From Thermus arciformis (GTDB lineage: Bacteria; Deinococcota; Deinococci; Deinococcales; Thermaceae): 62,570 nt of DNA. Below the pieces are notes generated by a model. The model did no database searches. It saw only the letters and a list, made by a program, of their open reading frames with translations, and was not told the DNA's origin. Position 1 is the stretch's first letter; every line of letters begins with the position of its first letter. This document shows positions 6,759 to 11,836 of the stretch, one piece after another. The position numbers were made by a program, and so were the translations under genes. The DNA lies in assembly GCF_900102145.1 (NCBI RefSeq), contig NZ_FNBC01000012.1, forward strand, positions 1-62,570. Direction: 5' to 3'.

Positions 6759-6816
6759 CCCCCTCCGGGCCTACCTTCCTTTGCGGGAGGGGGGCTTGGG
6801 TTTTTGGAGTTCACGC

Positions 6817-6845
6817 TTGACCAAACTTTCCGAACCCCGTAGGCT
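6817..6845 (+). promoter_or_regulatory. Promoter of the gbsR-like/ABC operon
   Basis: TTGACC at 6817-6822 and TAGGCT at 6840-6845 are separated by exactly 17 bp. The -10 ends 6 nt before the ATG at 6852, so the transcript should be leaderless. This is one of the best -35/-10 pairs in the window. Confidence 0.65.
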
Positions 6846-6851
6846 AAGGCC

Positions 6852-7295
6852 ATGCGTCCCGCCCTCGAGGCCTGGGTAGAGGAAACCGCCCTCCTCTTTG
6901 AGGGCGCGGGGCTTCCCCGCATGGCGGGCCGGGTGCTGGCCTGGCTCCTGGTGGCCCACCCCCCTGAGCAGACCGCCAGGGAGATCGGGGAGGCCTTGGG
7001 GGTAAGCAAGGGAGCCCTAAGCCCCGCCTTGCACCTCCTGGTGCGCCTGGGCTTGGCGGAGCGCCTACGCCGCCCCGGGGAGCGGGCGGACCGCTACGCG
7101 GTGCGCCCTGGGGCGTGGCGGCGCCTCCTTTTGCAGAAGGTGCAGGCCTTGGGCCTCTTTCGGGAGCAGGCGGAAAGGGGCCTGGCCCTCGTGGGAGAGG
7201 GGAGGGGGGAGCGGCTTCGGGCCATGCGGGACCTCTACGCCTTCTTTGAGGAGGAGCTTCCCAAGCTCCTGGAGCGCTTTCGGGAGGAAGGATGA
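6852..7295 (+). CDS. GbsR/MarR-type transcriptional regulator
   Basis: A 147-residue winged-helix protein. The reading head EQTAREIGEALGVSKGALSP and the wing LAERLRRPGERADRYAV lie at about residues 38-85, followed by a helical C-terminus resembling GbsR-like proteins. Its last 4 bp overlap the first permease gene, so it is the first gene of the export operon and most likely its local, autoregulating control protein. No ligand can be inferred. Confidence 0.82.
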   Translation: MRPALEAWVEETALLFEGAGLPRMAGRVLAWLLVAHPPEQTAREIGEALGVSKGALSPALHLLVRLGLAERLRRPGERADRYAVRPGAWRRLLLQKVQALGLFREQAERGLALVGEGRGERLRAMRDLYAFFEEELPKLLERFREEG

Positions 7296-8476
7296 CCCTG
7301 CTTCGCCTCGCCTGGCGCAACGTGCTCCGCCACAGGCGGCGCGCCCTCCTCCTTTCCCTGGTGGTGGGCTACGTCACCTTAGCGGTGCTTTTCATGCTGG
7401 GCTTTCTGGACGGGTACGGGGAAAGCCTGGTGGAAAGCTACGCCCGGTACGTGGAGGCCCCCGTGGTGGTGGCCCCGAAGGCCTGGTGGCAGGACCCCGA
7501 CCCGCAAAGCGGCTTTAAGGCGCCCTTCCGGGTGGACCACCCCGGGGTCCTGGCCCAGACCCCCAGGCTCGCCCTCCCCGTCCTCCTCCGCTCCCCCTAC
7601 AAGGCCCATGGGGCAGAGGCGCTGGGGGTGGACCCGGGGGGCGAGCGGGCCCTTTCCCGGGTGCCCTCCAAGGTGGCCGAGGGGCGTTTTCTTGCGGGGC
7701 CGGGGGAGGTGGTCCTGGGGTACCGCCTGGCGGAGAGGCTGGACGTGCGTTTGGGCGAGCGGCTGGTGGTGGAGACGGGCCGGAAGGCCTTGGGCCTTCG
7801 GGTGGTGGGGATCCTCAGGGCCGGGGTTTCCAACGTGGACTTCGCCGGGGTCTACCTCCACCTGGAAGACGCCCGGAGCCTCACCGGGGTCTGGGCCACC
7901 CACCTGGCCCTCGAGGCCCCGAGGGGGCAGGAGGAGGCCCTGGCCCAGGAGCTCAACCGGCGCCTGCCCCCGGGCCTCGAGGCCCGGGGGATCTGGTCCC
8001 TCATGGGGCCCATCCGCGCGGACTACGAGGCGAGCCGCCTCTTCTACCTTCCCCTCCTGGGCCTCTTCCTCTTCCTGGCGGCCATCGCCGTGGCCAGCAC
8101 CGCCTACGTGAGCGTCCGGGAGCGGCTCAGGGAGTTCGCCGTGGCCGAAAGCCTGGGCCTCGCCCCTTGGCGGCTCGCCGGCCAGGTGGCCCTGGAGGCC
8201 GCCTTGGCCAGCGGCCTTGGCCTCGCCGCGGGCCTCCTTGGGGGCTACGCCCTTTTGTGGTACACCGCCACCCACGACGTCTTCGGCCCCCTGATGCGCC
8301 TCTCGGCGGAGCTTCTGCCCGAGGCGGGCCTGGCGGAGCACCTTTACACCGCCGTCCGTCCCGGCTACGCCCTGGTGGCCGCTTTGGTGGTGGGGCTTTC
8401 CGCCCTCCTCGCCCTCCTCTTCCCCGGGCGGCTTTTGCTCCGGATGGAGGTTTCCGCTTACCTCAAGGAGGTGTGA
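7292..8476 (+). CDS. ABC transporter permease, FtsX/MacB/LolC-like (first)
   Basis: A 394-residue permease of the four-helix MacB/FtsX type: TM1 at about residues 16-35, a large extracytoplasmic domain to about 240, then three helices near 250-275, 300-325 and 355-380. The FtsX-family stretch VRERLREFAVAESLGL follows TM2. Works with the second permease (9170-10366) and the ATPase (10377-11060). The LolA-like gene between them points to lipid or lipoprotein traffic across the periplasm. The next ATG follows its TGA directly. Confidence 0.87.
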   Translation: MTLLRLAWRNVLRHRRRALLLSLVVGYVTLAVLFMLGFLDGYGESLVESYARYVEAPVVVAPKAWWQDPDPQSGFKAPFRVDHPGVLAQTPRLALPVLLRSPYKAHGAEALGVDPGGERALSRVPSKVAEGRFLAGPGEVVLGYRLAERLDVRLGERLVVETGRKALGLRVVGILRAGVSNVDFAGVYLHLEDARSLTGVWATHLALEAPRGQEEALAQELNRRLPPGLEARGIWSLMGPIRADYEASRLFYLPLLGLFLFLAAIAVASTAYVSVRERLREFAVAESLGLAPWRLAGQVALEAALASGLGLAAGLLGGYALLWYTATHDVFGPLMRLSAELLPEAGLAEHLYTAVRPGYALVAALVVGLSALLALLFPGRLLLRMEVSAYLKEV

Positions 8477-9169
8477 ATGGCGAGGCTCTTGGCGGCGTTG
8501 CTCTTCTTGGCTTGGGCCTGGGGGCAAAGCCCCCTGGAGAAGCTGAAAGCGGCCCTGGACCACCTGAGGGGCCCGGCCCACCGGGCGGTCTACGTCCTGA
8601 AGGTGGAGCGGCCTGGCTTTAGCAAAACCTACCGCCTCCAGGTCTTCACCGACGGGGAAAGGGCCCACGTGCGGGTGCTGGAGCCCAAGAGCGAGGCGGG
8701 GCAGGCCTACTTGTCCTTGGGCCAGGACCTGTACCTCTTTGACCCCCGCTTGGGCCGCACCCTGCGCCTGCCTCCCACGGGGCGGTCGGAGCGGTTTCTG
8801 GGCTCCGACCTCACCTACCAGGACCTCATGGGCCGGGACCTGGAGGCCCTCTTTGAGGTAGCGGAGGAGGGCGGGGTGCTGCGCCTTTTCCCCAAGCCCG
8901 GGGCCCCCACGCCCTACGGCAAGGTGGAGGTGTACCTGCGGGAGGGGTTGGTGGAGCGGGTGGTCTACTACGATCAGCGGGGGGAGGCGGTCCGGGAGCT
9001 TCTCCTTAGGGCCTACCAGCGCCTGGACGGGGCCCATTTGCCTCGGGAGATGGAGCTTAAGGACCTCCTCCGCCCGGGCTACCGCACCTTGGTCCAGGTC
9101 CTCGAGGCCCAGGTGGGCCCGGTGCCCGAGCGGTGCTTCCAGCCCCTTTACCTGGAAAGGGGGTGCTAG
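8477..9169 (+). CDS. LolA-like outer-membrane lipoprotein/lipid carrier
   Basis: A 230-residue secreted protein. It has a signal peptide of about 17 residues (MARLLAALLFLAWAWGQ), then a LolA/LppX-type half-barrel sequence including RFLGSDLTYQDLMGRDLE, a motif typical of the outer membrane lipoprotein-sorting group. Such proteins hold an acyl chain and pass it onward. It sits between two permease genes with no gap on either side, so the complex probably hands cargo to it. There is no lipobox Cys after the signal. Confidence 0.78.
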   Translation: MARLLAALLFLAWAWGQSPLEKLKAALDHLRGPAHRAVYVLKVERPGFSKTYRLQVFTDGERAHVRVLEPKSEAGQAYLSLGQDLYLFDPRLGRTLRLPPTGRSERFLGSDLTYQDLMGRDLEALFEVAEEGGVLRLFPKPGAPTPYGKVEVYLREGLVERVVYYDQRGEAVRELLLRAYQRLDGAHLPREMELKDLLRPGYRTLVQVLEAQVGPVPERCFQPLYLERGC

Positions 9170-10366
9170 GTGCTGCGCCTGGCCTGGCGCAACCTCCTGC
9201 GCACCCCCGGGCGGAGCCTGACCACGGGGGGCGTGGTGGCCCTGGTGGTCTTCCTTTCCATCCTCTTCCTCTCCGTGTACGGGGGGGCGATGGACGCCTT
9301 CTTCCGCCTCCTCCTGGAGCGCACCGGGCACCTGGTGGTGCGGGTTGCGGGCTACCGGGACCTCGAGGACCTGGACCGCCTGGCCTTCGTTCCCCCCGCT
9401 TTGGACCTCCCCCCGGGGGCCCAGGTGGAAGGGGTGCTGGAGGGCGTCGCCTTGGTCATCGCCGGGGATCGGAGCCGCCCCGCCTCCCTCACCGGCCTCA
9501 CGGAGCCGGGCTTTCTTAGGCAGAAGCGCCTCCTCAAGGCGGGCCGGCTTCCTCAAGGTCCTGGGGAGGCCCTTTTGGGGGAGGCCCTGGCCCGGGCGTT
9601 GCGGGTGGGCCTGGGGGAGGAGGTGGTGGTCTACGCCCCCGGGGGGCTTGGCCTGGGGATCGTGGCCCTCCGGGTGGTGGGGTTGCTGGACCTCCCCGAG
9701 ACCTCCTTGGAGGCCCGCACCCTTCTCCTGCCCCTGGCCGACGCCCAGGCCCTCCTGGCCCCGGGGCGGGTGACCCGGCTGGAGGTGCGGCTTCCCGAGG
9801 TGGGGCTTTACCAGCTCGCCCCCCTGGAGGCGCTCAAGGCCAGGCTCGCGGCCGGTCTTCCCGGCCTCTCCGTGGAGACCTGGCTGGAGGCCAACCCCAC
9901 CTACGCCGCCATCCTCCCCCTTTACGACGTGGTGATGGCGGTCTACCTGGGGTTTTTCTTTGTCCTGGCGGGCCTCATCCTCCTCAACGCCCTGTACCTC
10001 TCCCTGGTGGAGCGGGTCCGGGAGTTCGGGCTCATGGCCGCCCTTGGCCTTAGCGGCTCCCAGGTCATGGCCCTCGTCTTCTGGGAAAGCCTCCTTTTGG
10101 TGGGAGGGGCGGCCCTGGTGGGGCTTGGGCTCGGCCTTCTTCTCTACCTGGAGCTCAAGGAGGGCTTCCGGCTTCCCTTTCCCCAGTGGATCCTGGAGCA
10201 GTACCGGGAGTTCGGTTTGCCCGAGGTGCTCTACGGCCGCCTTGGGGTGAAGGAGGTTCTCCTCACCCTGGGCTACAGCGTGGGGGTGGCCTTGGGGGCG
10301 GCCTTGTGGCCCGCCTGGCTCGCCCGGAGGCTGGAGCCCGTGGAGGCCATGCGCTACGTGCCCTAA
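9170..10366 (+). CDS. ABC transporter permease, FtsX/MacB/LolE-like (second)
   Basis: A 398-residue partner permease with the same plan as the first: TM1 near 15-40 (TTGGVVALVVFLSILFLSVYG), a periplasmic domain, and three C-terminal helices (about 255-285, 295-325, 360-385), with VERVREFGLMAALGLSGSQV as the FtsX-type coupling segment. It starts at a GTG directly after the TAG of the LolA-like gene. The two permeases are diverged, suggesting a LolC/LolE-like heterodimer. Confidence 0.87.
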   Translation: MLRLAWRNLLRTPGRSLTTGGVVALVVFLSILFLSVYGGAMDAFFRLLLERTGHLVVRVAGYRDLEDLDRLAFVPPALDLPPGAQVEGVLEGVALVIAGDRSRPASLTGLTEPGFLRQKRLLKAGRLPQGPGEALLGEALARALRVGLGEEVVVYAPGGLGLGIVALRVVGLLDLPETSLEARTLLLPLADAQALLAPGRVTRLEVRLPEVGLYQLAPLEALKARLAAGLPGLSVETWLEANPTYAAILPLYDVVMAVYLGFFFVLAGLILLNALYLSLVERVREFGLMAALGLSGSQVMALVFWESLLLVGGAALVGLGLGLLLYLELKEGFRLPFPQWILEQYREFGLPEVLYGRLGVKEVLLTLGYSVGVALGAALWPAWLARRLEPVEAMRYVP

Positions 10367-10376
10367 AGGAGGAAGT

Positions 10377-11060
10377 ATGCCCATCCTAGAGGCCAAAGGC
10401 GTGCGCAAGGTGTACCGGGGGGACGGGGTGGAGACCGAGGCCCTGAGGGGGGTGGACCTGAAGGTGGAGGCCGGGGAGTTCACCGCCTTGGTGGGGCCTT
10501 CGGGAAGCGGCAAGAGCACGCTCCTCCACCTTCTCGCCGGGCTGGACGTGCCCACGGAAGGGGAGGTTTTCCTGGACGGGGTGCGGGTGGACCGGCTTTC
10601 CCGGGCCGCCCGGGCCCGGCTCCGGCTGGAGAAGGTGGGGCTCGTCTTCCAGGCCTACAACCTCCTCCCGGTCCTCACCGCCTTGGAAAACGCCGCCTTC
10701 GTCCTGGAGGCCCGGGGGGTGGAGAGGCGGGTGCGGGAGGCCAAGGCCCTGGAGGCCTTGGCGGCCCTGGGCCTGAAGGACAAGGCCCACCGCTACCCCC
10801 GGCAGCTTTCCGGGGGGGAGCAGCAAAGGGTGGCGGTGGCCCGGGCCCTGGCCGCCGAGCCCCTCATCGTCTTGGCCGACGAGCCCACGGCCAACCTGGA
10901 CTCCCGCACGGGCCTGGCCCTGGTGGAGCGGATGAAGGCCCTGAACGAGGAGCGGGGGGTGACCTTCCTCTTTTCCACCCACGACCCCCGCCTTCTGGCC
11001 CACGTGCGGCGGGTGGTCCGCCTGGAGGACGGGCGGGTCGTGGGGGAGGAGAGGGCTTGA
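10377..11060 (+). CDS. ABC transporter ATPase, LolD/MacB-like
   Basis: A 227-residue nucleotide-binding subunit. Walker A is GPSGSGKST at residues 40-48, the signature is LSGGEQQRVAVARAL near 140, Walker B is LIVLADEPTANLDS near 165, and the switch His is in STHDPRL. This is the LolD/FtsE/MacB subgroup that pairs with four-helix permeases. AAAGGAGG lies just upstream of the ATG. Energises the two permeases of this operon. Confidence 0.92.
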   Translation: MPILEAKGVRKVYRGDGVETEALRGVDLKVEAGEFTALVGPSGSGKSTLLHLLAGLDVPTEGEVFLDGVRVDRLSRAARARLRLEKVGLVFQAYNLLPVLTALENAAFVLEARGVERRVREAKALEALAALGLKDKAHRYPRQLSGGEQQRVAVARALAAEPLIVLADEPTANLDSRTGLALVERMKALNEERGVTFLFSTHDPRLLAHVRRVVRLEDGRVVGEERA

Positions 11061-11836
11061 TCCGGAGGGCCTTGGGCTTCCTCTTGGGGTTTTCCTTGGC
11101 CCTGGCCCAGGGTCTGGAGCTTGGGGTCTGGGGTGGGGAGGGGAGGGCCGCCTTTTACCTGCGCCTGGCCGGGCTTTCCTCCTGGGAGGGGGGGCGGGTG
11201 GCCTTCTCCTTGGTCCCCTACCTGGGGTTGCCCGGCGGGGAGGGTGGGGTCAGCTTGGAGCGCCTTTCCTTGACCCTCTGGGAAGGGCCCTGGGGGCTGG
11301 AGCTCGGCCGCTTCCCCCTCTCCCTCGGGCAGGGGCGGCTTTACCCCTACACCTGGAACAGGCCCTCCCCGGCCGGGGGAGAGGAAGGGGTGTGGGGCGG
11401 GGCCCTTTCCTGGTACGGGGAAGGGGTCGTGGCGCGGGCGGGCTGGGTGAGGGAGCGGGGAGGGTTCGCCGAGGTGCGGGGCCAGGGGGTGCGGGCTTAC
11501 CTCTTCCGGGGCGGGGCGGGGGTGGCCGCGGAGGGGCGCCTGGGAGAGGCGCTTTTCTACGGGGAAGGGCGGTGGGAGGGAGGGTTTTCGGGGCTCCTTG
11601 GAGCCTCCTGGGCGGCGGGGGGCCTCCTCTTCACCCTAGAGGGGGTTTACCCCTGGGGGTTTGGCCTGGGGGTGGAGGGCGCCCTCGAGGCCCTGGGCTT
11701 CTCCGGAAGGGTCCTGTATAGGGAGGGGATGGGCTTTGGCCTGGCCTTCGGGCTTGGGGGAGAGGGGTGGCGGTTCCTTTGGGGGAGGATGGGAGGTGTG
11801 GGCTTCTGGGGGGCGGCTTTATGGGGAGAGCTTTAG
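11057..11836 (+). CDS. Predicted outer-membrane beta-barrel protein, unrecognised
   Basis: A 259-residue protein starting at TTG 11057, overlapping the ATPase stop by 4 bp, so translationally coupled. A signal peptide (MIRRALGFLLGFSLALAQ) is followed by alternating glycine/aromatic amphipathic strands throughout (for example AAFYLRLAGL, ALSWYGEGVVARAGW, GFGLAFGLGGEGWRFLWG). This pattern indicates a barrel of 12 or more strands. It ends ALWGEL rather than with a terminal Phe. I do not recognise the family. Position suggests it is the outer-membrane acceptor or exit of the ABC system. Confidence 0.6.
   Translation: MIRRALGFLLGFSLALAQGLELGVWGGEGRAAFYLRLAGLSSWEGGRVAFSLVPYLGLPGGEGGVSLERLSLTLWEGPWGLELGRFPLSLGQGRLYPYTWNRPSPAGGEEGVWGGALSWYGEGVVARAGWVRERGGFAEVRGQGVRAYLFRGGAGVAAEGRLGEALFYGEGRWEGGFSGLLGASWAAGGLLFTLEGVYPWGFGLGVEGALEALGFSGRVLYREGMGFGLAFGLGGEGWRFLWGRMGGVGFWGAALWGEL

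Follow-up and report, generated by a model that had tools for sequence, protein, structure and literature searches.

A six-gene unit of Thermus arciformis as a probable envelope-spanning exporter combining a LolA-like carrier with a predicted outer-membrane barrel

Apart from lipopolysaccharide and lipoproteins, little is understood of the routes by which hydrophobic molecules traverse the periplasm. The question arises for a compact operon of Thermus arciformis, located at positions 6852-11836 of the forward strand of a 62,570-nucleotide stretch (contig NZ_FNBC01000012.1, hereafter the window), in which the open reading frame list places, in order, genes for a MarR-family regulator, a first permease, a LolA-like carrier, a second permease, an ATPase of the ATP-binding cassette (ABC) type and a predicted outer-membrane barrel. 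An initial annotation had likened this set to LolCDE plus LolA and had proposed a dedicated lipid or lipoprotein pathway to the outer membrane. No publication on this operon in Thermus was found in the literature searched, and we ask here what kind of molecule such a unit would carry, and in which direction. Its parts are as follows.

6809-6826, forward strand: imperfect palindrome GTTCACGCTTGACCAAAC resembling a MarR operator, overlapping the -35 element; position conserved in Thermus, Meiothermus and Deinococcales
6817-6845, forward strand: promoter, TTGACC-17 nt-TAGGCT, 6 nt ahead of the marR ATG; layout kept in relatives
6852-7295, forward strand: MarR-family regulator, 147 aa; MarR_2 PF12802, 2e-10; heads the unit in most relatives as well as in Thermus
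7292-8476, forward strand: permease 1 (FtsX/MacB_PCD by Pfam, type VII ABC), 394 aa; four hydrophobic segments
8477-9169, forward strand: periplasmic LolA-like carrier, 230 aa; LolA_like PF17131, 5.7e-30
9170-10366, forward strand: permease 2 (FtsX and MacB_PCD by Pfam), 398 aa; GTG start
10377-11060, forward strand: ABC ATPase, 227 aa; ABC_tran, 2.7e-35; motifs GPSGSGKST, LSGGEQQR and LADEPTANLD
11057-11836, forward strand: predicted outer-membrane beta-barrel, 259 aa; TTG start, signal peptide, 18 strands
11315-11389, forward strand: longest barrel loop (aa 87-111), almost strand-free in the model, inside the most conserved segment

The tight joining of the six genes described initially was borne out, the junctions being 4-bp overlaps (marR/permease 1 and ATPase/barrel), gaps of zero on both sides of the carrier gene and a 10-bp gap between permease 2 and the ATPase gene. 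Pfam likewise bore out a regulator of MarR type within the unit, two FtsX-type permeases, the LolA-like carrier and the ATPase. The permeases, about 30% identical to each other, have the features of type VII ABC transporters, namely an FtsX domain, a MacB-like periplasmic domain, an ATPase partner and four transmembrane segments, the latter count being clear for permease 1 and based on rough hydropathy for permease 2.

We favour, with moderate confidence, the interpretation that the unit serves to export a hydrophobic or lipidic molecule across the whole envelope, under the control of its own regulator. This view draws on the observed gene content and order, the predicted folds of carrier and barrel, a conserved promoter with its palindrome, conservation across the phylum and repeated loss. 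In the absence of its ligand, MarR would occupy the palindrome lying across the -35 element and so hold the operon silent. Once expressed, the type VII pump would extract a hydrophobic molecule from the inner membrane, as has been proposed for the type VII transporter YbbAP (PMC12646458); the LolA-like carrier would then shuttle this cargo across the periplasm and hand it over to the 18-stranded barrel, which would either place it in the outer membrane or release it outside.

The most distinctive component is the barrel, which matches no Pfam family, including the Wzi profile PF14052, and for which sequence searches found no relative of solved structure. An AlphaFold2 model built on an alignment of 20 homologues (mean predicted local distance difference test, pLDDT, 93.9) shows 18 strands after the signal helix, in agreement with the earlier proposal of an outer-membrane barrel. 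All best Foldseek matches to this model are outer-membrane barrels (porins, OprD/Occ channels and AlgE), while VIA-align ranks Wzi top (2ynk, Z 18.4, 235 residues, 3.0 A), with OprD/Occ at Z about 17 and AlgE at about 16. On the model, the protein belongs to the Wzi/OprD-Occ/AlgE 18-stranded single-chain fold, from whose known members it differs in its much shorter chain (259 aa), an identity of 8-15% over the roughly 235 residues aligned at Z 16-18, its operon context and its lack of a Pfam match. Among Thermus sequences, aa 84-114 reach a conservation of 0.86 against about 0.6 elsewhere, and the long loop that they contain may turn inwards, as the constriction loops of porins do. The barrel is 42-57% identical within Thermus, compared with 80-88% for the ATPase, 74-81% for permease 2 and mostly 72-83% for the carrier; fast divergence is common in surface-exposed proteins. 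AlgE is a known exporter and OprD/Occ proteins are uptake channels. The initial annotation had seen the barrel as standing in place of LolB; such a role would be putative, the predicted fold being one shared by porin-like exporters and by channels for uptake.

The carrier scores 104.8 bits against PF17131 (cut-off 30), which was the sole family reported by Pfam at E values up to 1, with no match to classical LolA (PF03548). Its signal peptide is without a lipobox. The predicted structure (pLDDT 88.5) has the LolA fold, as the initial annotation had anticipated, and Foldseek places it closest to 3buu, 9tp6 (LolA3 of Porphyromonas gingivalis), 3bk5 and 4z48 (a DUF1329 protein), with template modelling scores of 0.75-0.80 to these chains versus about 0.45 to classical LolA. 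It thus models as a LolA_like PF17131/LolA3-type protein with a LolA fold, not as a classical LolA, and shares both family and fold with P. gingivalis LolA3, a protein that barely binds LolB (PMC13103446). In Flavobacterium, deletion of lolA3 left gliding and amylase secretion unaffected (PMC11885536). Labels such as 'outer membrane lipoprotein-sorting protein' on PF17131 members probably mislead. Two cysteines near-invariant in the alignment, C220 (9134-9136) and C230 (9164-9166) in the pattern CF...L..GC, perhaps form a disulfide; they were not seen in the aligned solved relatives 3buu, 3bk5 and 9tp6.

These components travel together across the phylum. Orthologues of permease 1 occur in 51 of 111 Deinococcota genomes, of which 48 carry a LolA_like gene within 2.5 kb and 43 a barrel orthologue, within 6.5 kb in 38 (Fisher p 4e-16 for the association, uncorrected for kinship; contig breaks account for some of the misses). 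In Meiothermus, Deinococcales and an Oceanithermus-like genome (all genus names but Thermus being read from kinship and context), the genes again run MarR, permease, LolA-like, permease, ATPase, barrel, and barrel orthologues sit after the ATPase gene across the phylum. A barrel gene not conserved with the ABC genes, or a predicted non-barrel fold, had been named beforehand as evidence that would tell against the initial annotation; because the barrel accompanies permease 1 in 43 of the 51 genomes and is predicted to fold as one, neither outcome was found. Together with the fold models, this co-occurrence argues for an export unit complete in itself, comprising a LolA-like carrier and a predicted barrel conserved across the phylum, although such a statistic, like the tree described below, is no proof of function. 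Spread outside the phylum was sampled through plasmid and Escherichia coli records, and permease 1 as query against plasmids returned no match.

Within Thermus the locus is flanked by serA upstream and, downstream, by a convergent gene for a 141-aa protein and a PucR-like regulator gene. Carrier and barrel genes are both at the locus in 12 of 27 genomes. Three have the ABC genes without the barrel, two of them visibly damaged (one through a broken carrier gene, the other with a transposase gene after permease 2), and three have the barrel or its remnant without a complete pump, the remnant in G065 (L037) having no in-frame start codon. The remaining nine have neither; in five of these serA and the 141-aa gene are nearly adjacent, and two keep a scrap of the ATPase gene or marR between them. 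In the permease 1 tree, the Thermus copies all fall into a single clade (100/99) and the Meiothermus copies group with Deinococcales. A recent foreign island in Thermus was rejected in view of this clade and of the common site at serA. Purely vertical inheritance throughout the phylum is also unsupported, since the position of the Meiothermus copies with Deinococcales, and not with Thermus, indicates that transfer or an old duplication has taken place within the phylum. The unit is old and widely kept as useful enough, and dispensable. The cargo that fits best is an inducible, non-essential one, such as a toxic hydrophobe, a secondary lipid or a pigment-like molecule.

Expression appears to be controlled just upstream of marR, from where the messenger would probably be leaderless. 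The layout of this promoter recurs before nearly all marR orthologues checked, and the element is kept at further loci of Thermus, Meiothermus and Deinococcales, for which reason we regard it as more than a chance match. It had initially been called strong, a term we do not retain: the -10 TAGGCT agrees with the consensus at only 3 of 6 positions and a strict consensus promoter scan listed no promoter at marR, the conservation of the element notwithstanding. The palindrome, with consensus GTTCAGTATTGACTRAAC, overlaps the -35 element before many marR orthologues; its exact core pattern was found in 20 of 111 genomes against 0 of 111 for the reversed-pattern control, and the matches inspected sit directly ahead of marR genes. 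Furthermore, in five genomes devoid of the six-gene operon the same operator precedes a marR gene adjoining an ABC ATPase gene (L173, L174, L175, L176 and L177, around position 1501), and in one of these five an ABC-2 permease was confirmed (L198). The placement of the operator before marR at other ABC exporter loci points to regulated export, and ties this regulator family to it.

Several points weigh against this interpretation. The outward direction and the contact between carrier and barrel are steps that we infer, the former being unproven by sequence. Binding of MarR to the palindrome is likewise putative, and the window copy is a weak one, pairing at 4 of 9 positions (other copies form 4-7 pairs). 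The barrel may be replaceable, since three Thermus genomes and G071 retain the permeases without it. Finally, no cargo-linked enzyme was found in the operon or constantly adjoining it.

An alternative that we consider unlikely is that the unit supplies the outer membrane with a structural lipid, for example a glycolipid or a carotenoid glycoside, in the course of normal envelope building. The fold of the carrier, the outer-membrane barrel and the wide spread in the phylum would suit this role, as would the surroundings of fatty-acid synthase/polyketide synthase type of an analogous E. coli cluster described below. A dedicated MarR switch argues in the opposite direction, as does the decay, at one fixed Thermus site, of a unit that can be dispensed with, and among the genes of the window no lipid biosynthesis gene adjoins the unit.

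Somewhat less likely still is lipoprotein sorting, in which the pump would extract triacylated lipoproteins for the LolA-like protein to carry, the barrel replacing LolB or exposing them at the surface. The nearest solved chains are LolF, LolE and LolC for permease 1 and LolF for permease 2, the best NCBIfam model of the ATPase is LolD, and the unit shares with LolCDE-LolA-LolB its two FtsX/MacB-type permeases, separate ATPase and LolA-fold carrier. Nevertheless, with the LolCE model TIGR02212 (cut-off 362) the permeases score only 43 and 64 bits, and the ATPase reaches 222 bits against the LolD model TIGR02211 (cut-off 308), while another permease of the same genome (L050 709-1893, G000:C30), for which no ATPase partner was located, has the best LolCE score found there, 178 bits, and by its sequence is the likelier one to release lipoproteins in T. 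arciformis. Given these scores, the operon is not the best Lol candidate of its genome. It further departs from the Lol system in its PF17131 carrier, its own regulator, a barrel and no LolB, and in not being essential in the genus; being dispensable, it is not the essential lipoprotein pathway. A housekeeping Lol pathway was therefore rejected on the low scores, the closer LolCE relative and the pattern of loss. The LolCDE plus LolA label is not supported, and of the pathway proposed in the initial annotation the lipid part is possible, while the lipoprotein part is unsupported in view of the Lol scores, the closer LolCE relative, the carrier type and the loss or breakage of the unit in about half of the Thermus species.

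It is improbable that the unit is a tripartite drug pump of the MacAB-TolC kind, forming a continuous channel with the LolA-like protein as adaptor, a role that has been suggested for the LolA-superfamily protein AmeB (PMC6394551) and that would agree with the MacB_PCD domains of both permeases and with MarR control. The operon contains neither a MacA-type adaptor nor TolC, its barrel is an 18-stranded single chain and its ATPase is unfused to the permeases. Least probable of all is uptake, with a compound of hydrophobic or sugar nature entering through the barrel and being moved inward by the ABC system: the fold relatives of the barrel include the OprD/Occ uptake channels, but type VII ABC transporters (Lol, MacB, YbbAP) are not known to act as importers, and LolA-type carriers move cargo outward.

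The closest published analogues of the exporter that we favour are two. AmeABCD of Castellaniella defragrans likewise brings together, in a single cassette for hydrophobe efflux, an inner-membrane exporter, a LolA-superfamily periplasmic protein and an outer-membrane barrel, and its deletion lowers monoterpene tolerance (PMC6394551). It differs in its resistance-nodulation-division (RND) engine (HAE3), where the window unit has an ABC transporter, its DUF1329 carrier, its DUF1302 barrel and the additional AmeC (PMC6394551). The Borrelia cluster BBJ23-29 unites a type VII ABC transporter, a LolA-like protein and an outer-membrane barrel, with a non-polar cargo proposed; it has a single permease (as a homodimer), an Omp85-type barrel and two tetratricopeptide repeat chaperones, with no MarR gene reported (PMC13078400), whereas the window operon has no tetratricopeptide repeat gene and a Wzi/Occ-like barrel of 18 strands. 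Operons in which LolA_like genes are linked to MMPL also hold an exporter and a regulator, and differ in having an MMPL exporter with ABC ATP-binding proteins, a TetR gene and up-regulation at low iron (PMC10434189, PMC13103446).

We tentatively suggest, as a possibility short of a probability, a class of envelope exporters composed of a soluble LolA-like shuttle, a dedicated 18-stranded barrel, a one-component regulator and an interchangeable engine, which may be type VII ABC, ABC-2 or RND. If real, such a class would be general though hardly described so far, and would rely on a carrier where tripartite pumps form a tube. The Thermus unit offers a small, natural and complete set of extractor, shuttle, barrel and switch, in a genus whose proteins favour structural work, with close relatives among which natural knock-outs occur.

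Further clusters of related composition were observed, several of which we count in favour of the exporter reading. In the same genome, an ABC-2 ATPase, a permease and a 244-aa barrel-like protein are encoded together (L163 5606-8513, G000:C59), adjacent to a weak LolA_like match (L002 1438-2154, 25.9 bits), possibly a second carrier-barrel exporter; similarly weak LolA_like matches occur in many Thermus genomes. No sequence homology was detectable between this second barrel-like protein (L002) and the window barrel. In other Deinococcota (L193, L194 1428-6518 and L195), TetR and MMPL (RND) genes adjoin LolA_like, followed in L194 by a barrel-like gene whose product weakly matches both Wzi and the profile of the window barrel; the barrel-like protein of L091 also matches Wzi PF14052 weakly. 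On a Bacteroidota plasmid, LolA_like, two permeases, an ATPase and a barrel-like gene lie together. In E. coli (NZ_CP062824.1, L199 8080-12920), an island adjoining ycdU, near the curli genes, carries a fatty-acid/polyketide-type cluster with genes for an ABC ATPase, a permease, LolA_like and a hypothetical product, possibly a barrel; of 5426 E. coli genomes, 369 have most of the stretch searched. The 4.9-Mb E. coli 'plasmid' NZ_CP134663.1 of PLSDB (L093) is, by size and content, a mislabelled chromosome.

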